Shown here: positions 10,452 to 62,878 of the stretch, in pieces | Layout of the letters: each line of letters starts with the position of its first letter | Position numbering within the stretch: the stretch's first letter is position 1 | NCBI GenBank assembly: GCA_033977485.1 | Contig: CM066995.1 | Coordinates: 47,739,162 to 47,803,161, forward strand | Reading direction: 5' to 3' | Source: Hydrangea macrophylla | Lineage: Eukaryota > Streptophyta > Magnoliopsida > Cornales > Hydrangeaceae | DNA length: 64,000 bases | Notes under the pieces: model-generated | Database searches by the model: none | Told to the model about the DNA's origin: nothing | Seen by the model: the letters and a program-made list of their open reading frames with translations, nothing else | Translations under genes and position numbers: made by a program

Positions 10452-10561
10452 TTCGATCGATCGAAGTGACTTCGATCGATCGAACCTTCGATCGATCGAA
10501 CCATTCTCGATCGATCGAACCTGCTGACTTCAATCGATCGAACATACTTCGATCGATCGAA
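10452..10561 (-). promoter_or_regulatory. Six-copy TTCGATCGATCGAA array, copia LTR
   Basis: Copies start at 10452, 10471, 10487, 10506, 10529 and 10548 (steps 19, 16, 19, 23, 19). Four are perfect 14-bp palindromes. The array lies 22-131 bp upstream of the TATA box on the minus strand. In the 5' LTR the array is 17676-17785, with one copy changed from CGATCGATCG to CGATCGATTG. Each perfect copy carries three CpG sites. Confidence 0.8.
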
Positions 10562-11570
10562 CCTGTCTTAACAGCTTCCTCAAGTGTCTTTCCAAGCATC
10601 CTAGTGGAGCTAAGAGTGGGACCTCCTAGGCTCTTTATTGTTGGCTCAGACCAGTTTGTTAATTACCATGACCAAACTCTTTGATCAGCAAACTAACTAA
10701 CTGGTCAGTTAACGTTTATTCCACTATAAAATGATAACTGAACTCCAACGCAAAAGAACATATCCGAAGCGATAACTAGACTTGTATGGTGTACTAATGT
10801 CCCTCTACCGTCAGCATTCGTAATCATATTCAGGTAGTCGGATAACTGTTACTGTCAACCTGAATCATGATTACTTCTTGTATTCCTTGAGTCCCATTCA
10901 CTACTCATGATTACCAAACATGTTGATAACTCTTATCAACAAGACTGCAGTACTCAGTAATCAACTTGGTGACATTCTCAAGGGAATGCTTACTCTGAAT
11001 CAGAGGGTAGATTCTATCTTGACAATATATGTTCACAACCCTATGGACATGACATACCCAAGATACCCAGGTGTTGATCTTCTATAGACCTCACTGATTG
11101 GTAAGTCAAAGCAGCCATATCCATAGTCTGTGTTCATAATCATCTCAAGATTGAGAACACGTACCTTATACAAGTTATGAGTTCCTATTGACTGTTGACA
11201 GCCTTAAGCGTCAATAGGAAAGCTCAGGTCCGTCAATGCACTATAAGCACTAGCATATCAACTAAGAGCTACACTCTAGTGATTGAGATTAATCACTCCA
11301 TCCAATGGTAGTTAATTATGCTACAGTGTAGACCTGATGAGGTATCCAGTCTCATCATCCACTGTGACATATTCTAAGTATCAAAGAATAGTAATTCGTA
11401 TCTCACTTGTGTGTATCTCATACACACACGAATTGCTTACTATGATACTTAAGGACAAAATAATCATCTCATGAAAGAAACATACACAATGAAATGTAAA
11501 GCTGATATCCATATATTATAATGCTAATGTCTCATACATAAAGTAATGGTTTGAGGGCACAAACCCAACA

Positions 11571-11585
11571 AACTCCTACTTGCAC
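11571..11585 (-). other. Polypurine tract of the copia element
   Basis: The minus strand reads GCAAGTAGGAGTT directly before the 3' LTR start TGTTGGG. This is the expected position and composition for a plus-strand primer tract. Confidence 0.75.
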
Positions 11586-14500
11586 TCACAACCATACAGG
11601 ATTACATCTGAGACCTAGACTATCTAGATGACGATCAAAGACCTTCTGTGGCAAGGCCTTTGTAAACGGATCAGCAAGATTGTCAGCGGTGGCAATCTTG
11701 GTGACAGTCACATCTCCACGTTGAACTATATCTCGGATTAGGTGATATTTCCGCTCTACGTGCTTTCCCTTCCCGTGGTTCCTTGGCTCCTTGGACTGAG
11801 CCACTGCCCCACTATTATCGCAGTATAGCGTAATAGGTGACAATGACGCTGGTACCACCTCGAGTTCCATAAGGAACTTCTTGAGCCAAACAGCTTCCTT
11901 TGCGGCTTCACAAGCAGCCACATACTCAGCTTCTGTAGTTGAGTCTGCAATGCATTTCTGCTTAATGCTCCTCCAACTAACAGCACCACCTCCCAAGGTA
12001 AAGAGATGTCCGGATGTCGACTTTCTCGAATCTTTATCTGACATAAAGTCCGAGTCAGTGTATCCTACTGGAATTAACTCACTACCGCCGTACATAAGCA
12101 TGTAATCTTTAGTTCTTCTCAAGTACTTAAGAATGTGCTTAACCGCTGTCCAGTGCTCTGGACCAGGATTCGATTGATACCTGCTGACCATGCCAACGGC
12201 AAAGCAGATATCTGGTCTAGTGCATAACATCGCATACATGAGACTTCCCACTGCCGAGGCATAGGGAATTCCTGCCATGCGATTCCTCTCCTCTTGTGTC
12301 TTTGGACACTGGTCCTTGGAGAACGCTAAACCATGCCTAAAAGGTAACAAACCTTTCTTCGAATTATCCATTGAAAACCTAGTTAGCACTTTCTCGATAT
12401 AACCAGCTTGAGATAATCCCATTATCTTTCGCTTGCGATCCCGAAAGAGCTTTATCCCAAGAATATAGCTCGCCTCTCCTAGATCCTTCATATCGAAAGT
12501 ACTAGCTAGCCAAACCTTGACCGTTGACAGCGCCGCTACATCATTCCCAATGAGTAGAATGTCATCAACGTAAAGCACAAGAAAAGCCACTACTTTCCCT
12601 TCACATTTCTTGTATACACAAGGCTCATCCAAATTCTGTATGAAACCAAACGACTTGACTGCTTGGTCAAATCGGATGTTCCAACTTCTGGATGCCTGCT
12701 TAAGCCCATAAATGGACTTTTGCAACTTGCATACCAAGTTACCTTTCCGACCAGCTATGAACCCTTCTGGTTATTGCATATAGATGTCCTCCTCAAGATT
12801 GCCATTCAAGAATGCAGTCTTGACGTCCATCTGCCAGATTTCATAATCTAGGCATGCAGCAATGGATAAGAGTATTCTGATGGACTTGAGCATGGCTACC
12901 GGCGAGAAGGTTTCCTCATAGTCAATGCCCTCCCTCTGAGTATAGCCTTTCGCCACAAGCCTTGCCTTAAAGGTCTCAACCTTTCCATCAGATCCTCTTT
13001 TCCTCTTATAGACCCACTTGCAGCCAATGGGTTTAATATTGGCAGGAAGTTCTACAAGATCCCAGACCTGATTGGAATCCATAGATTCCAATTCAGCCTT
13101 CATAGCTTTAATCCAATGAGCTGAATCAACATCAGCCATTGCCTCTTCGTAAGTGGTAGGATCAGATTCAGATTCTATGGAGACAGCTTCAAAAACTTCT
13201 CCTAAGAACATGTATCTATCAGGCTGGCTGATAATCCTCCCACTACGACGAGGTACCGGTGCGGAAATGGGTGAAGAAGTGGTATTTTCTTGATTTTCAT
13301 CGTTATCAACTGCGGGTTGGACTGAGGGCTCTCCTTCTATCTCTCTAAGATCTATCCTTCCCTTAGGTTTATGGTTCATGATATAATCATCCTCCAAGAA
13401 AACAGCATTTGTACTAACAAACACTTTCTGTTCTCTTGGATCATAAAAATACCATCCATAAGTACCCTTTGGATACCCTACAAAGTAACATACTTCCGAT
13501 CTAGAATCCAACTTGCTCATCTTTCCTTTAAGCACATGTGCCGGACACCCCCATATCCGGAGATGTTGCAAAGAAGGCTTGCGCCCAATCCACATCTCTC
13601 GTGGTGTCCTGGGAACAGATTTGCTTGGTACTAGATTTAGTATGTATGCAGCGGTTTCCAAAGCATAACCCCAAAGGAATAACGGCAACTCTGAATAACT
13701 CATCATCGACCTAGTCATGTCTAAAAGAGTCCGATTCCTTCTCTCCGCTACACCGTTCTGCTGAGGCGTACCAGGTGCAGTCAACTATGACAGAATCCCA
13801 TTCTGTACGAGGTGATCAATAAACTCATTAGAGAGGTACTCGCCACCTCGATCAGATCGAATGGCTTTGATATGTGTGCCCGATTGCTTCTCCACTTCAG
13901 CCCTAAACTCTTTGAACTTTTCAAAAGCTTCAGACTTGTGCTACATTAGGTACACATATCCATACCTAGAGTGGTCATCGGTAAATGTTATGAAATACTC
14001 ATAACCACCCCTTGCTCTAATATTTATTGGTCCACACACATCAGTATGAACTAATTCCAACAATGCATTGGTCCTATTGCCCTTTGCAGGAAAGGGCCTT
14101 TTGGTCATCTTACCCTCCAAACAAGATTCGAAGACTTCCATTGGTTCGAGAACCAAATCGTCTAAGACCCCTTCTTTGACTAGTCTGCCAATCCTATTCA
14201 GATTGATATGGCCAAGCCTCATATGCCAAAGCCTTGTTGGATTAGTGGAAGGTTCCTTTCTTTTAGATGGTAAAGTTACCACTGAGTTATTAAGTTCCAA
14301 ACAAGAATCTTTTGAAATATTGGGAGTAATCACATACAAACCATTTGATTTAACACCAGAACATATAAAAGAACTGTTTCTTTTAATGACAACTTCAGTT
14401 CCAAAATGAAAGGAATAACCATTATTCGTTAAATTAGAAACTGAAATTAAATTACGTCTCATTAAAGGGACGTAAAGTACATCTGATAAAATCAAAACTT

Positions 14501-15575
14501 TATTGTCTGAAAATTCTAAAATTACGACTCCTATAGCAACCGCAGATACGGTTGCGCTAGAACCTAGAGTAAGCACGATCTCCCCATCACTGCATTTCCT
14601 GGTTGATCTGAACCCCTGCAATGAATTACAGATATGGTTAGTCGCACCAGAATCAATGCACCAAGTGTTTGAATTATCCGTAATAAAACTTACTTCAATC
14701 ACATGTGATTCAATCATACCTTGAACTCTTGTAGCTAAGAATTCTGGACAGTTCCTCTTCCAGTGGCCCTTCTCACCGCATTGGAAACACTTTCCTTTGC
14801 CTTGGCCACCCACCTTCCCTTTGCCCTTACTTTTTCCCTTAGATTTTGTAATCTTAGGGACCGGTCCAACACTTGAACCACCAGTGCCAGCCTTCTTCTT
14901 TCCTTTCTTACCTTTCGGTGTAGATCGGGAAGAAGAAGCGCTTTTCTCAACGTTTAAAACGCTGCCCCCAGGTTTGATCACCCCTTCTGCTGCCAGTAAA
15001 GAACTCATTAATTCGCTCATTGAAAAATCCATTTGATTCATATTATAGTTTAGTTTGAATTGAGCGAATGATGGCGACAGCGAGTTGAGGATCATATCAA
15101 CTTGGGTCTGTGCATCGATGTTGGCTCCCAAGGTCTCCAGTTCGTTTAAATAACCAATCATTTTTAAAACATGTTCTTTGACTGGAGTACCTTCCGACAT
15201 CTTTGCACTCATTATCTTCTGCATGGCTACCTGTCTGGCAGGCCTGCCATGCTCCCCAAACATCTTTTTCAGGGATGTGATAATGTCACTGGCAGAATCG
15301 TTCGATTGGAATTGGTGTTGTAACACACCAGCCATTGAGGCCATAATGTAACAATGGGCCATTCCATTCGACTTCTTCCATTTGTCGAACTCGCGTCTGG
15401 CAGCTGCCGAAGCATTTGCCGCGGGTTCTTTAGGGCTTGGGGTGGTGAGGACATATATGTGATCCTCCGCAGTTAAAACGATGTCAAGGTTACGTTTCCA
15501 TTCAGTGTAGTTATTTCCAGTTAACTTGTTTTGAGTGAGTATGGTGGCAAGTGGACTAAATGCAGATCCAGACAT
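11586..15575 (-). pseudogene. Copia gag-pol polyprotein with three in-frame stops
   Basis: Translation starts at ATG 15575 (MSGSAFSPLA). Domains in order: UBN2-type gag; CCHC zinc knuckle CFQCGEKGHWKRNC (near 14750-14790); protease with DSGAT (near 14650); GAG-pre-integrase motif with LWHMRLGH; integrase core; copia reverse transcriptase with YVDD at 12561-12572; RNase H near the C terminus. The frame is the same throughout. It is broken by TAG at 13941-13943, TAG at 13785-13787 and TAA at 12771-12773. The first two lie within integrase and the third within reverse transcriptase. At the last two, alignment with the family suggests an original glutamine, so single C-to-T changes would explain them. 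No frameshift was detected. Length and domain order are normal for a full copia polyprotein. The lineage was not assigned. Confidence 0.93.
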
Positions 15576-17281
15576 TATGATTACTGAAAATCAAACAAAC
15601 AAAATAAATATGGATATCAGAATTGACAGTTTGAAATAAAAGAATCCTTAAAACTCTTATTTAAAAACAAAGTCGCCGGAATATCGAAACGAAAGAATAA
15701 AGCCTCCGTGTGGTGGTCAATGTTCGATCTTTCGATTTATCATGACTTATCCGCTATGCAACTCTTGCAAAATAGCCATGACTCCCGAACCTATTTGATC
15801 TCTAAGTTTCTGAATAATGCCCCGTGTGGGATCCCTTATCCATAGCTTAGCTAGTGTGTACCATTAACTAGGATCCAATCACAACCGTCTCAAGTAGCGC
15901 CTCCTTGTGGTGGTCACCCTCTAACACGTCTGATTGATCCTATCCATAGGAAGTTCACATCTAGTAACCAATGAGTAGTGTACCCTCCGTATGGAATGAT
16001 CACCCCTGGCGAGGTGACACAGAATACACTACTCATCTTACAATGAACCGTTAATGGAAGATCGTGGGTGTTATTTGATAAGACCCTCTCCCACTAGATT
16101 TAGTAAATTAAGGATTTTGCTTTTGAAAAATGTTTCCACACACTACCCATAAACATCCAATGTTTACTAATGTGTTGAAAACGGTTTTTGAATTTTATTT
16201 TAGAAAACTTGTTTTAAGTGCATGCAACAATGTATTATACGCCAATCACAAAACAAGCACATAAAACAAAAAACTAAAATGAAATATAGGCATTCAAACA
16301 ATGCCTCTATCTCCCATGGCTCTATTTCCATAGATCCACCTTCTTGGTTTGGTCGCCTCCGGCTCCATCTTTATGGACAACGGCTCCTTGCTCCATCTTC
16401 ATGGAATTTCTAATTCTATTACATTGGACCTATGCTTCTTTTGAAGATTACAATTTATCTAGAAAAAGAAAAAATATAGCAAAAAAGAAATAAAAGGCTA
16501 GGGAAACCGGTGCGACTTTCCTTTTCGTAGGATTGAAGCCGCAGCGCCCTTTACATACGCCTTAAAACCAAACCATTAATAAATTACAACATGCACCAAT
16601 CTCAAACAAATTAAATATAAATATTTAAACGACTTGGTGCCATGGGAGATAGCGACTAATTTTGCTGCAAAAGGGTTAGTCGTACACGCATCCACACATA
16701 CATAACAAATATATGTAACTATTGGAACACTTAATTGATTCACACAGTATATAAACACTTTACATACTGAATTAGAACTTAAAACAGCATCTTACTTCTC
16801 TGTCACAGTTCGATCGATCGAAGACCGTTCGATCGCTCGAACCTTCGAACGATTGAACACTGTTCAATCGCTTGAACATTCTGTTTCACAGAATGATTTA
16901 AAATTTTTACAGAAATAATTTAAGATTAAAGTATAATTTAAAAAACCTTTACAACTGTGAACAGAACACCTGGACAGAGAATCTGTCTCGATCGATCGAA
17001 CACCAGAAGGCTTCGATCGATCGAAACAAGTTCGATCGATTGAGAATAGAATGTTCGATCGATCGAAACAAGTTCGATCGATCGAACCCAGAATGTTCGA
17101 TCGATCGAAACAAGTTCGATCGATCGAACCCACCTTGCATCCTATGCAATCACAGTTTTGTATTCTGCTGCGATAACACTGCAGAAACAGAACTGTGACG
17201 ATGCAGTTTCGAAAACAGTTCTAAAATCAACATGCAAATCAAAACTAGGGTTCCAAAACGCATCTATAGATCCAAACGAGC
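15576..17281 (-). other. Copia 5' leader with a transcribed palindrome array
   Basis: This 1.7-kb untranslated leader lies between the primer site and gag ATG. No conserved ORF was found. It includes diverged CCTCCGTGTGGTGGTC-type phrases near 15705-15920 and the palindrome arrays at 16809-16876 and 16987-17128, described separately. Confidence 0.6.
16809..17128 (-). promoter_or_regulatory. Eleven-copy palindrome array in the copia leader
   Basis: Four copies (16809, 16828, 16844, 16863; steps 19, 16, 19) and, after a 110-bp AT-rich gap, seven copies (16987, 17012, 17031, 17054, 17073, 17096, 17115; steps 25, 19, 23, 19, 23, 19). Most of the second group are perfect TTCGATCGATCGAA. The array lies about 520-840 bp downstream of the 5' LTR TATA box, so it should be in the RNA. 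Confidence 0.8.
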
Positions 17282-17296
17282 GTGGCTCTGATACCA
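17282..17296 (-). other. Primer binding site (tRNA-iMet), copia element
   Basis: The minus strand reads TGGTATCAGAGCCAC, 2 bp inside the 5' LTR end. It is complementary to the 3' end of initiator methionine tRNA. Confidence 0.92.
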
Positions 17297-17298
17297 AT

Positions 17299-18794
17299 TG
17301 ATGGAAAAAGTGGTTTAAAGTTAGAGTTTAAACGCGCAGCGGAAATATGTTAAGTTATAAAACTTTTGGTATTCCAGGATCTACTACTCGTCAATTCCAT
17401 AGATGCGTACTAGGGGGTGCAAGAATTATACCTTAGTGTCTTGAACCCAATTCTGAAACTTCAACTTCCAGCAGCCTCCACTAGATGATCTTCACCCTTA
17501 TGACTCCTGCAGATGCCTGCCGGAAAGACTAGGGTTGGTGGGAACCCTAATAGAGAGGATAGGAAGGTTTTGGGAAGACTATGATAGTTTCTGCAGCTTC
17601 TGCGTATAAAAACGACGATCACTCACTTCCAGAACGCAGCTGCCCTATTTATAGATTTCCAGAACCGACCTAGACTTCGATCGATCGAAGTGACTTCGAT
17701 CGATTGAACCTTCGATCGATCGAACCATTCTCGATCGATCGAACCTGCTGACTTCAATCGATCGAACATACTTCGATCGATCGAACCTGTCTTAACAGCT
17801 TCCTCAAGTGTCTTTCCAAGCATCCTAGTGGAGCTAAGAGTGGGACCTCCTAGGCTCTTTATTATTGGCTCAGACCAGTTTGTTAATTACCATGACCAAA
17901 CTCTTTGATCAGCAAACTAACTAACTGGTCAGTTAACGTTTATTCCACTATAAAACGATAACTGAACTCCAACGCAAAAGAACATATCCGAAGCGATAAC
18001 TAGACTTGTATGGTGTACTAATGTCCCTCTACCGTCAGCATTCGTAATCATATTCAGGTAGTCGGATAACTGTTACTGTCAACCTGAATCATGATTACTT
18101 CTTGTATTCCTTGAGTCCCATTCACTACTCATGATTACCAAACATGTTGATAACTCTTATCAACAAGACTGCAGTACTCAGTAATCAACTTGGTGACATT
18201 CTCAAGGGAATGCTTACTCTGAATCAGAGGGTAGATTCTATCTTGACAATATATGTTCACAACCCTATGGACATGACATACCCAAGATACCCAGGTGTTG
18301 ATCTTCTATAGACCTCACTGATTGGTAAGTCAAAGCAGCCATATCCATAGTCTGTGTTCATAATCATCTCAAGATTGAGAACACGTACCTTATACAAGTT
18401 ATGAGTTCCTATTGACTGTTGACAGCCTTAAGCGTTAATAGGAAAGCTCAGGTCCGTCAATGCACTATAAGCACTAGCATATCAACTAAGAGCTACACTC
18501 TAGTGATTGAGATTAATCACTCCATCCAATGGTAGTTAATTATGCTACAGTGTAGACCTGATGAGGTATCCAATCTCATCATCCACTGTGACATATTCTA
18601 AGTATCAAAGAATAGTAATTCGTATCTCACTTGTGTGTATCTCATACACACACGAATTGCTTACTATGATACTTAAGGACAAAATAATCATCTCATGAAA
18701 GAAACATACACAATGAAATGTAAAGCTGATATCCATATATTATAATGCTAATGTCTCATACATAAAGTAATGGTTTGAGGGCACAAACCCAACA
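17299..18794 (-). repeat. 5' LTR of the copia element
   Basis: It is identical in length (1496 bp) to the 3' LTR and nearly identical in sequence. It contains the TATA box (17645-17654, minus strand) and palindrome array (17676-17785) that would drive this element. Confidence 0.95.
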
Positions 18795-18810
18795 AATACT
18801 CGTTATCATC

Positions 18811-23331: not shown

Positions 23332-23370
23332 CCCTGTATGTTTCTGATTTCGAGGACGAAATCTTTTGTT

Positions 23371-23383: not shown

Positions 23384-25628
23384 TGTAATACCCCATATTT
23401 TTAATAAATATTTAATGCAGAGAGATTCTATATACTTCATTTGACCATTCAAGAAATTTCATCTTCGATCGATCGAAGCTAGTTCGAGCGATCGAGACCC
23501 TTCAGTTCAAGCGATCGAACCCTTTTCGAGCGATCGAAACCCTACCGACATAAATTTAATACGTGGTCCCCACTTCAATCGATCAAACCTTTTTTCAATC
23601 GATCTAACTGACCGATCTGAGTTCGATCGATCGAGCATCCTTCGATCGATCGAGAATGTAATTATCAGAATTCCAGTTTCTGCGCAAATGCTGCCACCTG
23701 CACCCCATCCTCTCCTATATATACACTGCATTCGTGTGTGTGGTGGGTTTGCTGAACTCTTGTGAGAAGAGAGAGTTGAGAGTGTGTGCTTGTGTGTTGG
23801 TATACATATATATACACATACCTCCATATATCTATATATATACACACACATATCTATATATATATATATACACTCAGCAGAGGAGAAGAAGAGGAAAAGA
23901 AGAAGAAGAAGGAAAAAGAAGAGAGAGAAGGAGACAGAGAAAGAGAGAGACAGAGATAAGGCAGAGAGAGAAAGAGGCCGCCATTAAAGCTTGGAAGCTT
24001 TCAAACAAGCCAAACGCGCCCTTAACGACTTTTGGTGAGTTCCAAACTCACTCGGTATCGTAATTATAATGTTTTACATATTCTGGACGTATTAATTATA
24101 ACCCAAACACCCCCTAGCACATTCTGCACGTTCACTGGCAGAATCTGTGGAAGACGAAGTTCAATCGATCGAACTGAGTTCAATTGATCGAACATCAGAG
24201 CCCCAATCGATCGAACTGAGTTCAATCGATCGAGAATACTTCAATCGATCGAGACTACCTTCACTTCGATTGATCGAGATGACTTCAATCGATCGAACAG
24301 CACTTTCTTCGAGCGATCGAGATGACCTCAATCGATCGAACCTAGCAGAACATGAATGTATTCCTTTCAGTTTATAATGCATAGTGCATAGTTATTTAAT
24401 TGCTGTTCCATATTCCTATTATGCGATACTATGGATTACGGAGGTAATGGGATACGATAACGAGATTGAGATAACATGGCGAGTAACGTAGTCGGGTTCG
24501 GAACGCTAGAAATAGTACGACGCGATAACGTAGTAAGTTTGAGATGATAATATTGGGTAGTATTGGATAAGTGAGAAATGAGTCAGTAAGAGGATTGTAT
24601 GTTCAAAGTTGTGTGTGTCAAGCTGATGATTCGCTCAGGTTAAATCCGATAAGTGTATGTCAAGGATTTGATCAGGATCGTGAGAATTATGGGTGCACAG
24701 TACTCGCAAGCGTTCTTAAAAGCGGTGAACAGTAAGAGTTCTTAAAAGCGGTGAACAAGAGTAATTGTGGCACATCCATGATTTATATTTACCAGAGCTG
24801 TGTATGTATCGTACTCGCAAGCGTTCTTAAAAGCGGTGAACAGTAAGAGTTCTTAAAAGCGGTGAACAAGAGTATGGGTATATCCATAGACCAGTCGTTA
24901 TATGAGAACAATGTATGGGTGCTCGCAAGAGTTCTTAAAAGCGGTATAGCGGTGAACAAGAGCACTGGTATGTTGTGCTGATATAATCAGTTCGAGATAG
25001 TCAGTTGGGTATTGTGAAATCAGGCTTAGAATGGGAGTTGATAATAATCGATTAATGATATGTCTGAATAAACGAGTGAGGAATATATATATTTAGTATC
25101 ACTGTCATATATCGTTCATAATGGTAATTATGTCATTTCTATGAGACTGTGTTAGTTAGTGCTCACTCAGCTTTCAACAAGCTGACGGCCTTTATTGCCT
25201 GGACATTCCCCGTCCAGACTATCCTGTCCTTTACAATGCAGATGACGGAACTCATGGCGATAACGATTACCCTGAAGGGAGTTACGTAGAGAATGGCCCC
25301 ACTGATGCCAGTTATGCTGACGCCTATCCGTACGCTAGCTGAAGACCTGAAGATAGATAGTAGTTATATTACTACTTTTCCTTTTACTGTTGTACTTTGT
25401 AGTTAACGGGTACTTGGGCATATGTTGTCTCCAGACCTGTTGTGATCCTGTGGACCGTACTCTGATGTTTGTAATAGATAGAACCGTGTTTATATTTCAG
25501 TTGTTTTACTGTTCCTGTTTGGACTAGTACTGTGTGGTGTGGATTATCAGTGACTTTCACTTGTCATTCCCTATGGACCCATAAAGGAAATTTATTTTTC
25601 TCTATTTATGCTACTCCGGGGCGTGACA
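23384..25628 (+). repeat. 3' LTR of the gypsy element
   Basis: The 2245-bp copy of the 5' LTR. It lacks one 24-bp palindrome unit in the downstream array, has an extra TATA-dinucleotide pair near 23860, and keeps an intact TATA box CTATATATAC (23715-23724). Arrays are at about 23465-23655 and 24158-24341. Confidence 0.93.
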
Positions 25629-49183: not shown

Positions 49184-49250
49184 ATTCTACTGGATCATTA
49201 TAACAAGTCAAGTTAAAATATTCTCATGATAGAGATTCAATAGCATGAAC

Positions 49251-49666: not shown

Positions 49667-50014
49667 TATTGTTGGTGTACCTGGTTCTTTAAATTTTGTT
49701 GGTAAATTATGTTGTACGATGGAAGTAACTTCTTTAGCAAAGTTAGCAGATTACACATCCTGTCTTACATTTTGCTTACATTTGACAGTACATAAATCTT
49801 TTAAAATTTTTGCCTAAGCAGGTACTTGATTAATCACATCTAAGAGAGGAATATTAATATGCACTTGTTTAAATAATTTTAAATATTCTTGATTCTTAGT
49901 ATTTTGGTATTTTTTCAAACTTTGTGCATAAAGAATTTGATAAGAATATTCAGTAATTTCCTCTATTTCTATTTCCACTGGGAAATCAGATGTTTCATTT
50001 TCTTGAGAAATTTG

Positions 50015-51566: not shown

Positions 51567-52013
51567 GATTATAGAAACTTATATACTAGATTAATCAGTA
51601 GAAATTTTAAAATTATGTGATACTTGATATAAAGCCTCAGTAGTGTCTAAGGACATATGAAGTACAAGAAAAACTAAGTTTTAAAAACATCATTATTATT
51701 ATTATTTATAGCTAAGTAAAAAAAACCCTTTTTTATTAATTCAAATAATTTTTTTAATTTATTTTATATATTTTTATAGACTATAGGTTTATATATATAT
51801 AAATGTCCTTTTTTTTCTAGAAGATAGACACGTCCGTACTTATGAATTTATATATATATATATATTTATCAAAGAAAAATTATCTGTAATTTATTTTTTA
51901 ATTTTATTATTAAAAAAAAACTAGAGCATTTATAAGGTAGAATAAGTATATATATAGTGGGAGAAAAATTTTAGGCCTAATTTTATTATTAGTAATTTTT
52001 GTATTTTAACCGT

Positions 52014-52031
52014 TCCCCGACAACGGCTCCA
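52014..52031 (-). other. Primer binding site (tRNA-Asp), Athila-like element
   Basis: The minus strand reads TGGAGCCGTTGTCGGGGA. It is complementary to the 3' end of tRNA-Asp at all but two positions, the primer used by Athila elements. It lies 6 bp inside the LTR edge at 52038. Confidence 0.75.
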
Positions 52032-52037
52032 AAAACT

Positions 52038-52423
52038 TGATGACGTCCTACTAACGCGTTTTCTTATTAACACCCAAGTGTAAGTGATCGTACAAGTAAT
52101 AAAGTTCTAGTAAGACTAGGTAGAACCCACAGGGAACAGAAATAAAGATTTTAAATATAGGCAGTAACTATTTTGTCCCTAAAAAGAAAATAAAAGATGA
52201 TGGATTTTTGGGGCTTTTCCTAAACTACTAGTTTTTATATTTTTGCAGTAAACTTAATTAAAAGTTATTTTTTCAAAGTAGTTTACGGTAAAGATTTTAA
52301 CAGTACAAAATAAACTAACCAAGATGCTAGTAAGAAAGTGAAGAAAAAGAAATAAAAGCTAGATACGCATGAAATGAACTTTTTGGATTTTATTATAGCG
52401 AAAGATGGAAATAATACAAATAT
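52038..52423 (-). repeat. Truncated 5' LTR of the Athila-like element
   Basis: It matches the left LTR from 33425 for 386 bp, then ends abruptly at the CATTACAAG terminus of the next element. The continuation expected from the left LTR (TTTAATCTAAGTTGTC) was not found to the right within the window. Confidence 0.8.
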
Positions 52424-52644
52424 CATTACAAGAAAATATGTCTTTTGTGATGGAAAAATCTGTCACAAAAAAGGTGAAATTCTTGTGACGGATTTGTGCC
52501 CGACACAATTTTGGGCGTCATAAAAAGTCTGTGTCTGACCAAATTTCGTCACAAAAACTATTTGTGACGGATGTGACGGAATTGGTCCGACACAAATAAT
52601 AGCGTCATATATGCTTATTATTTGACACTATTATTTGTGATATT

Positions 52645-55600
52645 GAGGTTTCATACCAGAGGGGAGGTGAAGCAGAGATGGAGGAAGCCCTCGCTCAGGC
52701 AGCTCTTAAGTAGGTGTTCCGTGAGTGGGGGCCCCTTTCAGGGTCCTACATTTAGCTCTTTAAAGATGTTAATCTATCTATAGGAAGCCCTGTAAGCCCA
52801 ATATAGAGCTCTATAACAAGCATTTAAAGAGGCTAAGCTTACCTACCCTTCAAGCTTGTTTTAAGAGACCTTCGGACTACATAAAAAGAGGCATTGAACT
52901 CGTTTAGCTCATAGCTCAGAACTCATACTGTTTCCTTTAGCTCATTAACTCAAGAGCAGTCGTCCCTTATTCCATTCCTCTAGATCTCGGAATGGCGGGA
53001 CGAGAAAGGAAGAGTTCCTTAAAGAGCTTTCAGAGACTTAAGGTTGATTTCCTTGTCTTTGTTCTCGTGCATACACAAGTGCTGGACCCTGCAGGGGATT
53101 AGAACAACATTAGGTCATTCTGTCACTCCCTCTTATACGCTCTCCCCTATGCTTTTGGGGCTTCGGGGAGAGCTCTATGAGTCCGTTCCCTCATTCCTAC
53201 TTTCAGAGAACAAATGAGTTAAGATAAGTCCTATAAAAAGTAAAAAAGGGTTAGTTAACGCTCGGGTCCCATATAAAGGGCCCCTTCGCTGACCTTAAGG
53301 ATTGTCCTAACTTCTTATTACCAGCAGCTTCAATAAGAAAAGAAAAACATCTTCTAAAAACCAGTCTTTTCGACCGGCTTGCTTTAACTCCGAAAGTTAG
53401 GTTATTTTAAGTGACCAGTGAACCTTCAGCTGGATGGTCCAGATAATAAATCCCATTTCGAGGATCTACTCTGGAATATGTGCAGAAAGCATGAAGACAA
53501 GACGGCACTGGTTGTTCCATGTCAGGCTGACCGTATTCATGAGAGCTGCTATGCTTGGGGTAGGTTCGACCTACCTGTTTACGTGTTCGGCTTGCTTGGG
53601 ATGTTAAGTAGGAGTGATGACCCTATTTAACAGCTATACTTACTTCGACGCTGGCTCCATACCCTCATAATTGGTATCTTCCCTCAAAGCGGCTTAAAGT
53701 TTCGCTTGAGGTTTCATACCAGAGGGGAGGTGAAGCAGAGATGGAGGAAGCCCTCGCTCAGGCAGCTCTTAAGTAGGTGTTCCGTGAGTGGGGGCCCCTT
53801 TCAGGGTCCTACATTTAGCTCTTTAAAGATGTTAATCTATCTATAGGAAGCCCTGTAAGCCCAATATAGAGCTCTATAACAAGCATTTAAAGAGGCTAAG
53901 CTTACCTACCCTTCAAGCTTGTTTTAAGAGACCTTCGGACTACATAAAAAGAGGCATTGAACTCGTTTAGCTCATAGCTCAGAACTCATACTGTTTCCTT
54001 TAGCTCATTAACTCAAGAGCAGTCGTCCCTTATTCCATTCCTCTAGATCTCGGAATGGCGGGACGAGAAAGGAAGAGTTCCTTAAAGAGCTTTCAGAGAC
54101 TTAAGGTTGATTTCCTTGTCTTTGTTCTCGTGCATACACAAGTGCTGGACCCTGCAGGGGATTAGAACAACATTAGGTCATTCTGTCACTCCCTCTTATA
54201 CGCTCTCCCCTATGCTTTTGGGGCTTCGGGGAGAGCTCTATGAGTCCGTTCCCTCATTCCTACTTTCAGAGAACAAATGAGTTAAGATAAGTCCTATAAA
54301 AAGTAAAAAAGGGTTAGTTAACGCTCGGGTCCCATATAAAGGGCCCCTTCGCTGACCTTAAGGATTGTCCTAACTTCTTATTACCAGCAGCTTCAATAAG
54401 AAAAGAAAAACATCTTCTAAAAACCAGTCTTTTCGACCGGCTTGCTTTAACTCCGAAAGTTAGGTTATTTTAAGTGACCAGTGAACCTTCAGCTGGATGG
54501 TCCAGATAATAAATCCCATTTCGAGGATCTATTCTGGAATATGTGCAGAAAGCATGAAGACAAGACGGCACTGGTTGTTCCATGTCAGGCTGACCGTATT
54601 CATGAGAGCTGCTATGCTTGGGGTAGGTTCGACCTACCTGTTTACGTGTTCGGCTTGCTTGGGATGTTAAGTAGGAGTGATGACCCTATTTAACAGCTAT
54701 ACTTACTTCGACGCTGGCTCCATACCCTCATAACTGGTATCTGCCCTCAAAGCGGCTTAAAGTTTCGCTTGAGGTTTCATACTAGAGGGGAGGTGAAGCA
54801 GAGATGGAGGAAGCCCTCGCTCAGGCAGCTCTTAAGTAGGTGTTCCGTGAGTGGGGGCCCCTTTCAGGGTCCTACATTTAGCTCTTTAAAGATGTTAATC
54901 TATCTATAGGAAGCCCTGTAAGCCCAATATAGAGCTCTATAACAAGCATTTAAAGAGGCTAAGCTTACCTACCCTTCAAGCTTGTTTTAAGAGACCTTCG
55001 GACTACATAAAAAGAGGCATTGAACTCGTTTAGCTCATAGCTCAGAACTCATACTGTTTGCTTTAGGTCATTAACTCAAGAGCAGTCGTCCCTTATTCCA
55101 TTCCTCTAGATCTCGGAATGGCGGGATGAGAAAGGAAGAGTTCCTTAAAGAGCTTTCAGAGACTTAAGGTTGATTTCCTTGTCTTTGTTCTCGTGCATAC
55201 ACAAGTGCTGGACCCTGCAGGGGATTAGAACAACATTAGGTCATTCTGTCACTCCCTCTTATACGCTCTCCCCTATGCTTTTGGGGCTTCGGGGAGAGCT
55301 CTGTGAGTCCGTTCCCTCATTCCTACTTTCAGAGAACAAATGAGTTAAGATAATTCCTATAAAAAGTAAAAAAGGGTTAGTTAACGCTCGGGGAATCAAC
55401 CTCGAAAAAGGGAGTAGTGATAAAAGGGTATTACACTTCCATGAACGTTTGATCTGGGGGAATCAACCTCGAAAAAGGGAGTAGTGATAAAAGGGTGACT
55501 AGAATACGGAAATTCAACTAGTGAAGTAAGATCAGGGAATTCCACTATTGAAGTTATCCGTCTTAGGCTTCAAGCAAGCTATCTTTCAAGGAAGTCAGTC

Positions 55601-55762
55601 TAAGCCCTAAGCCAAGATCTGCTTTTTGCCAGTCAACTCTCTTTAGAGAAGTCTCAAGCACTTATTATTTTTGATAAGAGAAAATCGGTGGCACTTATCT
55701 TATTGGTACACAGAATTCAAAGAAAGCTTGAAAGTTCAGTTAGAGTTCTCCGTTAGGGTTTT
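52645..55762. repeat. Tandem 1063-bp repeats of organelle-like DNA
   Basis: Unit 1 is 52645-53707, unit 2 is 53708-54770, and a partial unit 3 is 54771-55391. The period is exactly 1063 bp and only a few bases differ. After the break, 55392-55762 is further foreign-looking sequence with a short duplication (GAATCAACCTCGAAAAAGGG, twice). GC content is visibly higher than the AT-rich surroundings, and the style (GGGGCCCCTTTCAGGGTCCT, CTTCGGGGAGAGCTCT) resembles plant mitochondrial intergenic DNA. I infer a nuclear insertion of mitochondrial DNA. This is unproven. 70-codon frames at 53418 and 54481 are repeated copies and not recognised. Confidence 0.6.
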
Positions 55763-56060
55763 ATTTGTGTCGACTCAACAATGTCACAAATAATATTTGT
55801 GATGGAATTTGATCCGACAAAAATTTTAGTGTTATATATACTTATTATTTGTGTTGACCTGAAGCCGTCACAAATACTCCGTCATAAATAATATTTGTGA
55901 TAGATTTTGTTTGAAAATTCCATCACAAATAGTATTTGTGTCAGATTTTGTTTGAAGATTCTGTCACAAATAGTATTTGTGTCGGATTTTATTTGAACAT
56001 TCTGTCACAAATAGTATTTGTGTCGGATTTTGTTTGAAGATCTGTCACAAATAGCATAAC
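55763..56060. repeat. CACTA subterminal repeats
   Basis: Repeats of about 40 bp contain TTCTGTCACAAATAGTATTT and GTGTCGGATTTTGTTTGAA. They match in style the left subterminal block, which the organelle-like DNA separated from them. Confidence 0.65.
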
Positions 56061-56678
56061 ACATATGAGTAACAAAAATCATTATTTTTCCATCGCAAGA
56101 AATTATGAAATACTAATTATTATCAACAAGAACAACAAAATTTAAAAGTGTATTAATTCGATCAAACGAGATACAATTAATAAAGTGTATGCTCCTACAT
56201 AATTGTTTCAGAGTTGACATTACTGAAAATTAAACAAAAATAAAGTAGATGTTCCTAAATTGAGGCGCGTCGTGATCCAAAACAGAAAATTGGCAGAGTC
56301 AATGTTTCTAATCTCTCTCCATATCCTGAAACAGAAAACCAAAATTCAATTAAAAAAATAGTAATACAGCCACCTCGACACAAGCAAAGTGAGAACAACA
56401 AAAAAATCAATCATGTTTACTAAAAAAAATTGACAGAGTTTACTTTATTTCTAAGATATCCTAAAATTTTCGTAAACCTGTAAATTGATAAACACATTCA
56501 CTATTAAGGACTGTCAAATGCATGTCAATATCATGAATCTTCTAACTGTTAAAATCATAGTAAACAACCAATCAGCCAAGATAGTATTCCGTGTGACCAA
56601 CAACACAATAGTATGTCATGAAATTTTTCAAGGACAATTAATTTATGTGTCACTATGTATTACCTTAACCTTAGTCCA
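56061..56678. other. AT-rich interior of the second CACTA, no gene
   Basis: No clear coding frame. The last bases, read on the minus strand, may continue the transposase-like exon that the LTR element interrupted. Confidence 0.4.
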
Positions 56679-57323
56679 TGATGATGCCAAAATTTGGTAA
56701 GACTAAAGTAGAGCAATTTTAGGAGAGAGAGAGAGAGTGAGAGAGACAATTTTTTGTATGTGGTTCGGCCCTGTTAATGAAGGTACCTACGTCCACGTGT
56801 GTGTCTGAGCACGTTCACTAGCAGATCACGGGCGGCCTGGTGAGCCAATAAAGAGGGGCGGCACTACCAGTAATACCGGCCGGGTGTATGCGTATAATGG
56901 TGAATTATAGAGGTGCTGTGTAGACTAAAGAGTTGGCGGCCCCTTCAATGGGGGGTGAGAGGTTTCTTTTATAGATGTAAGAGACCTACTCATATATGGA
57001 TAAGGAAATATAATCCTATTGATATATATTGACATTAATTATGGGGATTTCCTAATTGGATTAGGAAATAGTGTGCACTTTCCATTAGTCTTCTATCTTG
57101 AGTAAGAAACTGCCCGTAATGCTCGGGATCACGCCTATGGGCCCGGATGAGCTGTTCCCGCGGCGGGACGTGCATGTACGGTTTTCCTGACTTGCTGGCC
57201 GGGTAGTGAATGAACCGCTCGGGCTGATGCTTCTGAGCAGTTGTGCATGATTTGCCCGGGGCATGGACTAGCTGCTGATTGGAACCGCTCGGTCATAAGA
57301 TAGAGCCAATTTTGGGCATATCA
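56679..57323 (-). repeat. 3' LTR of the gag-only element
   Basis: A 645-bp LTR with a (GA)n run near 56724. It is several percent different from the 5' LTR. Confidence 0.9.
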
Positions 57324-57399
57324 GCTGCCCCCCATTTCCAAGATTGGCCAGATGCTATATCGGGGCATGTTTGGAAATTAGTTTGATGTTTACTTGCCG

Positions 57400-58373
57400 C
57401 TGTCTGAGTGCTTGTGGAAGCTGCCTCGGGGCTTCTGAGCTTGGTGAGTTCTCGGGAACTGGCTGAGAGTTGAGACCCAGCCTAGCTCGGGACCTTTAAG
57501 TGCTCGGGAATTGACCGGGAGTTAAGACCCGGCCTAATTCGGAGTCTTTTTTGCTTGAGTTAGCTCCCAGGATGGTTATCTTCTGCCCATAAACCTTCGT
57601 CAAGGCTGTGGGTAGAAGGATGTTACCATGTTGGAAAAGCCGACCTAAAGCGTATTGCTCTAGGGTCCTTTTTTTATGTTAACTCCCCAGGATGGTTGTC
57701 TTCCACCCGGCCAGCCTTCGTCAAGACTGTTGGGAGAAGAGCTTGACCATGTTGGTGGAGCCAACCTAAATCACGTTGCTTTAGGGTCCTTTTGCTCCTC
57801 TATTGTCAGCCAACCTAAGAGATTTTTGTCACCTCTATCGTCGGTCTGGACCTAAGTGGAGTTAATGCCTCTGAGTACTGTAGGTGCTCGGGTTGTCCAA
57901 GATTTTGACTTGGTTATCCGCGAGGCCTGTAGATACCCGGTATGATTACCTATTTAGTTTACTGCGCCATCTTGCCCTCTAAGCTTTCGCTAAGACGATG
58001 GTCTTACAGAGGCTATGACTGTAGGTAAATAACCTGGAACATGGTGGATGCAGGGTCTTTTGAAGCTTGCCATCATCAGCCACCTAGGGGGTTTGCCCCC
58101 ATCATCGGTTGGACCTAAGCGAAGCCGGTGCCTCAGGCGTGACCCCGAGGTCTTTGGTGCCTAGGTTCGGAGCTTGAGGTCTTTTGAGTGCCTGGGTTCA
58201 GAGCCCGAGGTCTTTTGAGTGCCTGGGTTCGGAGCCCGAGGTCTTTTTAGATGCCTCGGGGTTAGGCCCGAGGTCTTTGTATGAGCTCTGACAATCGGTG
58301 GAGCCTCACGCGGTGATCAGGCAAGTACCACTGTAGTTGGGCTCATCTAGATCGATGGAGATAGGAGGTCGGA
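57400..58373 (-). repeat. Untranslated 3' region with ~33-bp tandem repeats
   Basis: The part before the 3' LTR has no pol. Near 58140-58285 the phrase GAGGTCTTTTGAGTGCCTGG, with variants, is repeated about four times. Two ~140-bp similar blocks near 57550-57680 and 57675-57800 share CCAGGATGGTT and TTGCT(C/T)TAGGGTCCTTTT. Confidence 0.65.
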
Positions 58374-59702
58374 TCACGATCGTCGGGCTTCAGATTTCTC
58401 TGTGCCGGAGGCAAAGTCGGAATAGCTTGATCCTGACCGATGTGAACTGGAGGTCGGGTCAGGGCTGTCGGACTCACACCGCTGTGAACTGAAAGAACTA
58501 CCTGAACTCCCGGGCTGATCTCGCTTTCGCTTACTTCTGGAAGACTTGTTGCTTTCTTGCCCGGGGTCTTTGATCTTTAGAAATTCGTCAGTGTCGATAT
58601 ATTTTCCAACCCTCTCTGCGAGTTCGACCAAGGTTATCGATCGATTTCTGTGGAACGACGCGGCGCACTTGGTGTGTTGAACTCCCGAGCAGAAGGCTAT
58701 GATGGCGATTGCCTCGTTCAGATTGTGGATTTGAAGCTTCTGTTGGTTGAACCGGTCGATGAACTCCTTGAGGGACTCATTATTCCGTTGTCTGACTGTC
58801 AGTAGCTGCATGTCTGGCTTTGGCCGCTCATGCATATCGGCGAACTGGTTGATGAACTGCTTGCTGAGTTGTTTGAAACTGCAGACCAATCAGGGCTCCA
58901 AGGAGTAGAACCACTACATGGACAGGCCTTTTAAAGTGCTGGGGAAGGCTAGGCAGTGTAGCTCATCGGAGTTGGTGGCTAGGGCCATCTGAGCCTTATA
59001 GGTCCGGACGTGGTCGACCGGGCTTCCCGAGCCGTTGTATAAATCTAGCCGAGGCTGCTTAAATTTGCACGGGATGGAGAACCTCGCGATCTGGCTGGAG
59101 AATGGTGACTCTGTCTCAGTATTGGCTTGATTTGGAACACGGTTTTGACCAAGCTTTTTGGCCACTCCGTCGATCTACTTCTGCAAGTCCTTGATTCGGG
59201 CTTCCACTTCTTCCCGACTGGTATCTGAGGAACTAGTTGGGTTGGTGGAAGATGCTTCTTCATGGCGGGGTACTGTCCTCTGGGATCGGACTCGGCTATG
59301 ACTCTGGGTAACCGTTCGCCTAGGGACAACTCGGCTCTTGACCGAGTGGCCCTGGACTAATTCCCAGGCCATATGCTCCTGTCTTTTCTCTCGGGCAGCA
59401 CGCCCACTATTGATGTCTCTGGCATCCTCAACACGGGACAGGTTGGCTCGGGCACGTTGTCTGGTCAAGATCGGTTCCCGACCGTACGCAACGTTCCCGG
59501 GTCATTTCCCGGCCACTAGAGGATTGCTTTGCTGGGATAGCAGGGCTTCAATCTATTGCTGGATTTGACGCTGGCCCTCCAGGAGTTGTGTGAGGGTTGC
59601 GGTGATTTGCTCAGATGTCATGACTGTCACAGCCGGTGCCGGGGCCGAAGGAACATCCCGGTCGGACTGCTGATCAGTCTTCTTACCCTTCTTCGGTGGC
59701 AT
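58374..59702 (-). pseudogene. Gag of the gag-only element, with in-frame stops
   Basis: ATG 59702 opens MPPKKGKKTDQQSDRD. All pieces share one frame: a Gln-rich N terminus, an Arg-rich stretch, FSIPCKFKQPRLDLYNGSG at about 59050-59110, and a retrotransposon-gag core with FKQLSKQFINQFADMHERPK and ESLKEFIDRFNQQ, then a Ser-rich tail. Stops include TAG near 59552 and 59172 and two around 58890-58913. No zinc knuckle is visible. The gag resembles those of plant Tat/Ogre-related gypsy elements. Confidence 0.8.
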
Positions 59703-59763
59703 GATGATCAGTTAAGAGATTTGTAGATGGGAAGACTTGTCGTTCCCACAGACGGCGCCAAAC

Positions 59764-60411
59764 TGATGATGCCAAAATTTGGTAAGAGTAAAGTAGAGTA
59801 ATCTAGGAGAGAGAGAGAGAGAGAGAGTGAGAGACAATTTTTTGTATGTGGTTCGGCCCTGTTAATGAAGGTACCTACGTCCATGTGTGTGTCTGAGAAC
59901 GTTCACTAGCAGATCACCGGCGGGCCTGGTGAGCCAACAAAGAGGGGCAGCACTACCAGTAATACCGGCCGGGTGTACGCGTATAATGGTGAATTATAGA
60001 GGTGCTGTGTAGACTAAAGAGTTGGCGGCCCCTTCAATGGGGGGTGAGAGGTCTCTTTTATAGATTTAAGAGACCTACTCATACATGGATAAGGAAATAT
60101 AATCCTATTGATATAGATTGGCGTTAATTATGGGGATTTCCTAATTGGATTAGGAAATAGTGTGCACTTTCCATTAGTCTTCTAGCTTGAGTAGGAAACT
60201 GCCCGTAATGCTGGGATCACGCCTGTGGGCCCGGATGAGCTGTTCCCGCGGCGGGATGTGCATGTGCAGTTTTCCTGACCTGCTAGCCGGGTCGTGAATG
60301 AACCGCTCGGGCTGATGCTTCTGAGGAGTTGTGCATGATTTTCCCGGGGCATGGACTAGCTGCTGATTGGAACCGTTCGCGCATAAAATAGAGCCAATTT
60401 TAGGCATATCA
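59764..60411 (-). repeat. 5' LTR of the gag-only element
   Basis: The 648-bp LTR starts TGATGATGCC and ends GGCATATCA on the plus strand. It has a longer (GA)n run than the 3' copy. Confidence 0.9.
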
Positions 60412-60506
60412 GTCCATATATAGCCCAACGCATCCTCCGTCATGTCATCCCATTGCGCGTAATGGAGAGGAACTTGCTTCCCATTTCGTACCAGCTTGAG
60501 CACCAT
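60412..60506 (-). pseudogene. Possible CACTA transposase exon fragment
   Basis: The frame KLVRNGKQVPLHYAQWDDMT followed by EDALGYIW resembles the transposase-associated domain of plant En/Spm proteins, with (R/N)GK-VPL-Y--W wording. It is cut at its 3' side by the gag-only element and could continue at 56678 and below. The recognition is by style only. Confidence 0.35.
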
Positions 60507-60752
60507 TCAAGTTATCTGTGAGGTGAATTCAAAAAAGTTGGCTAGATTTATAGAGGTGGTATTGTAAGAAAGCTCGTCTACAGAAGTATTTATTGAACTA
60601 GCAATGCTAGAGAGAGAGAGAGAGAACCAACCTACAGCAAGATTTGTACTTCTTTGATCTTCATATGCAATAAAAGCAAAACCTTTTGAACTGCCAGTAC
60701 CTTTATCTCTGACAAGATTAACATCAACGATCTCTCCATATTTTGGTATCAT
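60498..60752 (-). pseudogene. Captured RRM exons, RBMX2-like
   Basis: Exon 60632-60752 encodes KYGEIVDVNLVRDKGTGSSK and GFAFIAYEDQRSTNLAV, the RNP1 half of the RNA-recognition motif of RBMX2/Ist3-type splicing proteins. A 116-bp GT-AG intron (60516-60631) follows, and the next exon starts with (D)NLNGAQ, the correct continuation of the motif. Homology stops after about 17 bases and changes into the transposase-like frame. It is a captured fragment with its intron, not a functional gene. Confidence 0.7.
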
Positions 60753-61688
60753 TTGATCAAAAAGTAGAAATCATAAGACCTATTGTCATCAACAATGGAA
60801 AAACCATAATTGCATATTTGTACAAAGCATAAGGGGAATGATGGAACCTTAAAAGCAAAAGAAACAAGAAGTCATGCAACCAAAAGTTTCATCATAAATG
60901 TTTTAATCCCCAATTAGACAGGCAAGATTTTGTTTATAAGGTTGAGGGACTGACATTGTCTGGCTTGCCTATAGAGGGCAAGCGCTTTTTATTTGCTTAA
61001 AGATTAGTATCTGACTTTACAGGCAAACACCAACCCTTCAATCCCATCCACCATTGCCAAGATCCTACTATACATGATCTCTATGACTCTTGACACAATC
61101 GTAGTTGTCGAGTATAAACTATACGCACTAATTTAATTTATTAATGGTTTGGAATCCTGAGTCAAACAAGTTACCTATGTAGTTGATGGATAGGCAAGAG
61201 TATCTCATTTTGACACCAACATAAGGAGTTAGACACATCAACACGTCCAACATGGACACAGAAACACGGCCATACTTTGTTTTTAGAATGAAATTCCTAC
61301 ACTAAAAACAAACAGTTTTCTATGCTTGAGTTTGTGATACCATTCTTATCTTCTGCTTCTTCTTTTTCCCCCTGATTTTGTATGTAGTGGAGACTTATTC
61401 TAGTTATTCTACAAACTTTTCTTAGTGTCCAATCAAGTCTTGAAAACACATGGACATGAGTTTTGTGTAACACACTGCATCACAAAGTCAATTGCTAAAA
61501 GTGTTAGGGATAACAGGAAAGGCAAGCAACAACTATCAACTCGCAATTGTAACGCAACCTTCAGGTCGAAATATTTTTGGGTGCAATAATTCCCCATTAA
61601 TCTACGGATGAAGAAACAATTGTCTTGGAATGACCTCGCAAATAAGTCAACTTGGTAGTTGACACGTGAAAAATCTTGTGCGCTCTTG
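60753..61688. other. Spacer, no gene recognised
   Basis: No conserved frame was found. It might be intron sequence captured with the RRM exon. It ends at the next LTR. Confidence 0.4.
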
Positions 61689-62283
61689 TGCAACACCCAA
61701 GTGTAGGTGATCGTGCAAGTAATACTGGATAAGTCCAGGTCGATCCCACAGGGAAGGAATAGGAAGAATGTATACTAAGTTATAACCTAAAGAAAAAGAA
61801 AATAAGAATGAATGATTGGAGGTTCTAATGAATCCTACTGAATTAAATTAAACTAAATAATAAACTAAACATAAGGAAACATAATAATTAAATAAATAAA
61901 CTAAAGGTGTTGGAAATACGAGAATCCACACTAATCCTAACCATCTACCATGCATACTCATTAACGTTCGATGGAGTTCATTCCTCTTCAGTATTCCGTA
62001 TTTTTCTAAAGATATAGAATCAATAGCCCTTTCATGCCCGGGACTATATCATCACAAGTGAGTTAAAATACATGAAAGACGGTTTAAAACAATGGTAATT
62101 ACTTGCACTCTAAATGGTGTTAGCATTCAAAGTGGTTTTCAAAAGTCATTGAAGAAAAGACCTTAAGGCTTTAAGTTCTAAAAACTGTTGTGACAAACTG
62201 AGCTTATTGGGACAATTTGATGACAGATTTCTAAAACAGAAAGTCATGGAATACTTAAAAGAATCATCTCAGGAATTAACATG

Positions 62284-62402
62284 TTCGATCGATCGAAGCG
62301 CTCTCGATCGATCGGACAGCAATCCTTCAATCGATCGAAATGCCTTCGATCGCTTGACTATGGCTCTGGTTCGATGGATCGAAATACCTTCGATCGATCG
62401 AG
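62284..62402 (-). promoter_or_regulatory. Downstream palindrome array, second Athila-like LTR
   Basis: Six copies start at 62284, 62303, 62326, 62345, 62370 and 62389 (steps 19, 23, 19, 25, 19). Two are perfect or one-off TTCGATCGATCGAA. The array lies 370-490 bp downstream of the TATA box on the minus strand. Confidence 0.78.
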
Positions 62403-62760
62403 CCCAGGGTTTCTAAAGGTTGCATGGCAGAGGCTGGGAATCAATGTTTCATCACATATTCCCAACGTCTAAACTACGGAAACATAATAAAACTATTGCA
62501 GAAATAGTAAAACAAAGCAATCATCAACATCTAAACTAATAAACAATCAAAGAACATAGATTGGAAAGAAAAAACCTATAAATAATCTGAATATAATCTG
62601 AATAAACTTGAAACAAACTTGAATCTTCAATCTACAATGGAAAAGGAGGAAGAAAACATCAAACTAAGCTAATCTACTCCTAAACTAACCCTAAAACTAC
62701 CCTAAACTGCTGTTTTTCGCGTTCTGGAGCGTCCCCCTCTCGTCTGGCGTCAAAACGACG

Positions 62761-62770
62761 TATTTATAGG
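62761..62770 (-). promoter_or_regulatory. TATA box, second Athila-like LTR
   Basis: The minus strand reads CCTATAAATA. It lies 41 bp downstream of the palindrome array in element orientation. Confidence 0.65.
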
Positions 62771-62810
62771 GTTCCCACAGAGTTTACGCAACTTTTAGGT
62801 GAAAATAAGG

Positions 62811-62878
62811 TTCGATCGATCGAGCTTAGTTCGATCGATCGAAGGTTCGATCGATTGAACTCTCTTCAATCGCTTGAA
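62811..62878 (-). promoter_or_regulatory. Upstream palindrome array, second Athila-like LTR
   Basis: Four copies start at 62811, 62830, 62846 and 62865 (steps 19, 16, 19). The step pattern 19-16-19 is identical to that of the copia LTR and of the first leader group in copia. Confidence 0.78.

Follow-up and report, generated by a model that had tools for sequence, protein, structure and literature searches.

How does one short palindrome come to stand in arrays in three long terminal repeat (LTR) retrotransposons of different lineages? The question is raised by a 64,000-nt stretch of contig CM066995.1 of Hydrangea macrophylla (the window), in which copies of the site TTCGATCGATCGAA occur in a Ty1/copia element, a Tekay-type Ty3/gypsy element and an Athila-like element. 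The arrays are read here, with a probability of roughly 75%, as promoter platforms for one dimeric sequence-specific DNA-binding protein common to all these promoters. Each 14-16 bp dyad would be the recognition site of this protein; two sites 19 bp apart would form a unit, and units would repeat at set steps. The upstream array, close to the TATA box, would act as an enhancer, and a second array would lie a few hundred base pairs inside the transcription unit, often in an apparent leader intron. The three lineages and an internal Athila promoter would use the same module because of their dependence on the same protein.

Abundance of the site and the families that carry it

In the window 62 matches with at most two mismatches were found, against 0.16 expected from shuffles, and all of them were confined to the three LTR elements. 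The genome comprises 2,221,998,752 bases (2.22 Gb) in 19 contigs, 18 of 98.6-162 Mb and one of 30 Mb. The scan of the whole genome proposed in the initial annotation was run with at most one mismatch and gave 257,803 sites, while the reversed control gave 267. Exact pairs with 0-30 bases between the sites numbered 24,268, and the control had none. The arrays first noted in the three elements were confirmed by these counts, on a larger scale than had been described.

A random sample was made up of 18 stretches of 10 kb, each from a different contig and placed at random within its first 60 Mb (about 180 kb, including 3,499 N in one stretch; a 19th place fell past the contig end). At up to two mismatches it contained 32 sites, and the control one. 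Thirty of the 32 were array sites, spread over 4 of the 18 stretches, and the two isolated sites were close to the control count; the site was not equally frequent outside LTRs, a point on which the initial annotation had made its proposal depend. Among 420 palindromes of the same composition, counted in this sample with at most one mismatch, TTCGATCGATCGAA had 14 matches, the runner-up three and the others a mean of 0.05. This local count takes the place of genome-wide ones for TTCAATCGATCGAA, a single variant, and for a control palindrome matched in CpG. A chance origin of the abundance is excluded.

Viral contigs searched with two patterns gave no match, and a stretch of Hoeflea halophila, the sole match in prokaryote contigs, was taken as chance. 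A search of other species via the peptides that the arrays would encode gave 2,384 word candidates with none at E ≤ 10, and is uninformative.

Thirty-five array loci were compared, namely three clusters, 28 stretches around listed places and four random stretches. The listed places were the first 100 of the genome scan, all within the first 6.1 Mb of contig 1; the stretches around them left out four listed clusters, in what may be the initial half megabase repeated, and two others at 3.066 and 6.017 Mb. The loci are partly dependent, as L037 appears to duplicate L001 and certain loci may represent both LTRs of one element. In the first 1.3 Mb of contig 1 (G000:C1), among the matches listed, site positions and spacers recurred at an offset of about 0.50 Mb and some once more, reversed, near 1.23 Mb, which looks like a large repeat or an assembly duplicate.

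Linkage of the 35 loci with the sites masked gave 18 copia, 2 Tekay and 10 Athila LTR loci and a fourth group of 5, which is the predicted internal promoter of Athila-like elements; all 35 were thereby assigned to the copia, Tekay-type and Athila-like lineages. The copia and Athila groups were joined by three links (matches of 84-149 bp), which were rejected as module sharing. One lay within the Athila reverse transcriptase (RT) and two at the very end of one locus (L029), and they were not parts of the module because all were at least 370 bp from any array.

The three LTRs of the window, with sites masked, had a best match of only 18-19 nt (E 0.12 and 0.80). The claim that these elements share no other LTR sequence therefore holds. 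The arrays and their flanks did not align as one inserted secondary transposon, an origin that was rejected for lack of flank likeness. No site with at most two mismatches was present in the 10-kb stretches of two copia relatives (L026 and L027, 72-74% RT identity) or in that of a Tekay relative (L019, with an LTR piece aligning at 67%), stretches that cover some of their LTRs, and Athila-type DNA at window positions 33-52 kb had no sites. The arrays therefore belong to particular families; possibly the array-free relatives lost theirs by decay.

Array positions at LTR and internal promoters

The three window elements are real insertions, each with an LTR pair and a target-site duplication (TSD). 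Their features are given below in window coordinates; the arrays were located by site scan.

6282..8548, plus strand: Tekay-type Ty3/gypsy 5' LTR, TSD TGCTT (self-BLAST, boundaries)
6362..6552, plus strand: Tekay upstream array, 8 sites, ending 62 bp before the TATA box
6614..6621, plus strand: Tekay TATA box TATAGATA
6928..6936, plus strand: Tekay donor-like TTG|GTGAGT (putative splicing)
7056..7260, plus strand: Tekay downstream array of 10 sites, whose pairs recur at 42-44 bp
8702..8714, plus strand: Tekay acceptor-like TTTTCCTTTGCAG, followed after 6 nt by the ATG that opens the first Tekay open reading frame (ORF, 8721-9725)
10075..11570, minus strand: copia 3' LTR, nested within the Tekay element, TSD AATAC
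10452..10561, minus strand: copia LTR array, 3' LTR copy, spacing 19-16-19-23-19
15584..15590, minus strand: copia acceptor-like TTTTCAG, 8 nt before the gag ATG at 15573-15575 (putative splicing)
16809..16876, minus strand: copia leader array 2, quartet 19-16-19
16987..17128, minus strand: copia leader array 1, 7 sites
17299..18794, minus strand: copia 5' LTR (self-BLAST, boundaries)
17645..17653, minus strand: copia TATA box TATAAATAG, 23 bp from the array
17676..17785, minus strand: copia LTR array, 5' LTR copy, upstream of TATA
23384..25628, plus strand: Tekay 3' LTR (self-BLAST, boundaries)
23464..23654, plus strand: Tekay upstream array, 3' LTR copy
24160..24340, plus strand: Tekay downstream array, 3' LTR copy
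61660..63268, minus strand: Athila-like 3' LTR, TSD GTAGT; its 5' LTR lies in the adjacent stretch L028
62284..62402, minus strand: Athila-like downstream array
62761..62768, minus strand: Athila-like TATA box TATAAATA
62811..62878, minus strand: Athila-like upstream array, quartet 19-16-19, 43 bp from TATA

The upstream arrays ended 23 bp (copia), 62 bp (Tekay) and 43 bp (Athila-like) from the TATA boxes, in line with the 22-131, about 60-250 and 41-108 bp claimed before, and the second arrays lay about 360-840 bp downstream of the boxes, where 370-840 bp had been stated. Some details had to be corrected: the range first described (10452..62878) misses the arrays of the Tekay 5' LTR at 6362-7260, and the copia downstream arrays are in the leader (16809..17128) and not in the LTR. 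Across copies, the copia array was 23-24 bp from TATAAATAG in 7 of 7, and the Athila LTR array 69-71 bp from a TATA box in 6 of the 10 fetched loci.

The same arrangement was found inside Athila elements. In L022 the pol ORFs (Pfam RT and RNase H) are followed by an array, TATTTAAA 5 bases on and a second array; an acceptor-like site comes next, and then the 3' ORF with its ATG. Internal promoters of this kind were seen at six loci (L022, L029, L031, L033, L041 and L046, including the internal arrays of L029); arrays, acceptor and ATG were present in all six and the TATTTAAA box in five, each time 5 bp from the array. Judged by its collinear matches to L022, L029 would carry LTR and internal arrays in one Athila element. 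The 3' ORF of L022 resembles PF20167 (E 5e-7, below the Pfam cut-off), and the Athila 3' ORF is presumably env-like. A promoter and a leader intron of its own seem to serve this ORF, so that it may be expressed apart from the LTR.

The downstream array often falls within a predicted leader intron. In the window Tekay element it sits between the donor-like and acceptor-like sites, and the acceptor precedes the first ATG by 6 nt. A donor-like site followed the copia array by 241-251 bp in 4 of 4 copies, and in the internal Athila promoters a donor-like site was present in 3 of 6 beside an acceptor in every one.

The Tekay-type element has Pfam matches to Ty3-type gag, protease and RT; the label Tekay is that of the initial annotation and is provisional. 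Its extra ORF (8721-9725; 334 aa, acidic), between the LTR and gag and directly after the acceptor-like site, had no significant Pfam match. The Athila-like element at 61660 is about 7.1 kb long (window 61660-64000 plus L028 1-4734), and its two LTRs are 99.69% identical. Its 5' LTR is adjoined by TGGCTCCGTTGCCGGGGA, matching what we take to be the Athila-type primer site, TGGCNCCGTTGCCGGGGA, which is the basis of the label. It contains one long ORF of 562 aa from stop to stop, which had no significant Pfam match, and no pol-like ORF of at least 100 aa; it is apparently a recent non-autonomous element. Elsewhere in the window, at 52643-55392, a 1,063-bp unit is present in about 2.6 tandem copies that are about 99% identical.

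Spacing, base constraint and the putative binding protein

Among 326 adjacent spacings of at most 60 bp, 168 were 19 bp, 53 were 25 bp, 36 were 16 bp, 19 were 18 bp and 18 were 23 bp, while 17, 21, 22 and 26 bp did not occur. The 50 exact pairs among the matches listed were spaced by 19 bp in 25 cases, 42-44 bp in 13, 16 bp in seven, 18 bp and 25 bp in two each and 35 bp in one. The grammar is fixed: pairs at 19 bp are joined via steps of 16, 23 or 25 bp, and the spacer letters are nearly free. Pairs recurred every 35 or 42-44 bp, and 42 bp would correspond to four helical turns.

Arrays of this kind could in principle be a neutral minisatellite that expands by slippage within LTRs, and in the copia family the arrays do differ in unit number by gains and losses. 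The fixed lengths, the symmetric constraint described below and the 102 distinct pentamers among 138 5-nt spacers contradict such slippage, which is hardly credible as the cause. Nine of the 18 copia copies placed by both flanks (out of 20) had the same six-site layout. In these nine, identity was 66.8% in the spacers, 91.1% in the sites, and 84.8% and 92.4% in the flanks on the TATA side and upstream, so that the spacers are the fastest-changing part.

The free spacers also bear on the possibility that the module was copied between lineages by recombination or template switching, its likeness reflecting common descent. The Athila-like upstream quartet and the copia leader quartet of the window agree in orientation and in their 19-16-19 steps, their site variants follow one another in nearly identical order, and the Athila-like quartet aligns without gaps to the array of another copia copy (81.7% over 71 nt, sites included). 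Against this, pentamers common to two lineages were about at or below the shuffled number (Athila-copia 4 against 12.5, Athila-Tekay 4 against 3.6, copia-Tekay 4 against 3.2), and the masked LTRs gave no match. The recent horizontal exchange suggested earlier is thus unsupported, although two quartets share variant order; an old exchange after which spacer identity was lost would be compatible with the data. Copying as a whole is unlikely.

The pairs might instead fold, as RNA or as single-stranded DNA, into hairpins with a 14-bp stem and a 5-nt loop, serving as small-RNA sources or structural signals. Palindromes 5 nt apart could form such a stem, and in maize, where a hairpin or small-RNA role was proposed for Sirevirus palindromes, their clusters are reported to attract small RNAs (PMC10760457). 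No covariation was found here, with 11.87 of 14 Watson-Crick pairs against 11.86 with shuffled partners; sites across links paired worse than the shuffle, and a 2-nt link cannot serve as a loop. Hairpins, and with them the small-RNA target once considered for these arrays, are therefore quite improbable.

The pattern of base changes points to a protein as the reader of the site. In 393 sites with at most three mismatches, A5 was kept in 393 and T10 in 392; positions 1, 6, 9 and 14 varied, though they likewise lie outside CpG. At the outer CpG, G4A-type changes numbered 145 and C3T-type changes 35, where plain deamination predicts equality. The direction was constant in the four groups (62:16, 32:6, 37:7 and 14:6, the last not significant), and the p-values are not to be taken literally because the counts are not independent but include related copies and both Tekay LTRs. 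In the flanks, A before the site (6 of 138) and T after it (7 of 138) were rare. The site appears to vary like a protein-read dyad, BTTCRAKCGMTYGAAV, in a pattern that a dimeric protein would leave.

Several observations weigh against a common binding protein. One contig supplied 31 of the 35 array loci, all within its first 6.1 Mb. The TATA patterns are loose, such words occur elsewhere too, and in 4 of the 10 Athila LTR loci no TATA box was found at 69-71 bp. A donor-like site was absent from the second Tekay copy (L001), from 3 of 6 internal Athila promoters and from 4 of 4 Athila LTRs checked. The copia sites were no better kept than the upstream flank, and identity between the two sites of a pair (P1 and P2) did not clearly exceed the shuffle (reached by 73 of 1000 shuffles), so cooperative pairing rests on spacing alone. 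Five changes lay within sites in the three LTR pairs, and per-base change after insertion was 0.0119, 0.0119 and 0.0065 in sites against 0.0079, 0.0028 and 0.0027 outside. Sites thus change at least as quickly as the LTR around them, as would be expected for unselected copies rich in CpGs, and constraint is visible between lineages and families only.

One common protein nevertheless best explains a binding constraint that recurs without DNA homology in four promoter settings. Of the common host transcription factor suggested in the initial annotation, the common sequence-specific factor is well supported by spacing, symmetric constraint and placement in LTR and internal promoters; it may be encoded by the host or by a transposon, and may be an activator or an anti-silencer. 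A narrower proposal is that the binder is dedicated to transposons, either encoded by them or supplied by the host with hardly any genes among its targets, and opens methylated LTRs like the VANC anti-silencing proteins, unrelated elements having evolved its site. The concentration of random-sample sites in arrays (30 of 32), the absence of array loci outside the three lineages (0 of 35) and the three CpGs in each 14-bp site would fit. VANC proteins likewise target short motifs, arrayed in tandem and turning over fast, and the unrelated AT9TSD1 holds VANC6 motifs as well (PMC5735166; PMC10398659). Against it, no VANC-like protein was found in a search confined to the extra Tekay ORF and the Athila-like ORF, neither of which had a significant Pfam match. 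This dedicated binder is a tentative idea, as is its consequence that a single protein of this kind might be the common promoter or anti-silencing switch of three lineages and the internal Athila promoter, and that elements converging on or parasitising the switch spread a quarter of a million sites.

The promoters of LTR lineages are generally taken as evolving separately, and here site, spacing and position around the TATA box recur in three lineages and an internal promoter. A single controlling protein is pointed to; were it gained or lost, many retrotransposon families might be switched together.

Comparison with known systems

In the plant copia elements Tnt1 and Tto1, tandem U3 enhancer repeats upstream of the TATA box drive LTR transcription, and the present arrays resemble them as tandem cis-elements in the same position. 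To our knowledge, U3 repeats of this type occur within single families only.

The repeated motifs (RMs) of Sireviruses come closer. These palindromes precede the TATA box and also the ENV gene (Bousios et al. 2010, PMC2829016), and the present site is likewise a many-copy palindrome that clusters upstream of TATA within the LTR. Palindromes with at least eight copies per element were found here, and clusters upstream of the LTR TATA box as well, save for the four Athila LTR loci already named. The internal Athila arrays precede the 3' ORF in 6 of 6 cases; this ORF is presumably env-like, and Pfam gave for it only the PF20167 match below the cut-off. The RM of Tnd-1, ACAATCGATTGT, contains the core CAATCGATTG, which it has in common with a variant of the present site (PMC2829016). 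The CGG-CCG signature of Sirevirus RMs is not found in the present site according to the site table, and the Tnd-1 RM likewise lacks it (PMC2829016). Unlike Sireviruses, which have a linker region after pol, the window copia element has a pol ORF that ends 15 bp from the 3' LTR, and the Tekay-type element has Ty3-type gag and RT. The RMs were reported as Sirevirus-specific and mostly CGG-CCG-based (PMC2829016), whereas here one motif and grammar serves a non-Sirevirus copia, a Tekay-type and Athila-like elements within a single genome.

The VANC/VANDAL system is similar in its short motif and its dense, fast-turning arrays in non-coding transposable element DNA (PMC5735166; PMC10398659). It differs in that VANDAL elements encode their own VANC proteins, none of which was seen in the two ORFs compared with Pfam. 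The VANC21 motif is not palindromic, and PMC5735166 contains neither 'palindrom' nor 'spacing'. Sharing beyond one family has a precedent, since VANC6 motifs were reported in the unrelated AT9TSD1 (PMC5735166), and a Sirevirus palindrome is reported from maize Helitrons too (PMC10760457). The statement that no described element feature is like this one was therefore too strong, as Sirevirus RMs and the VANC6 motifs in AT9TSD1 come close. In the open-licence literature the full site was not found printed, nor was a case of one motif and spacing rule common to copia, Tekay-type and Athila-like elements. Within the open-licence literature searched, the sharing of the module across lineages appears new, with the Sirevirus palindrome in Helitrons (PMC10760457) and the VANC6 motif in AT9TSD1 (PMC5735166) as lesser cases, and the nearest described feature would be the Sirevirus repeated motif.

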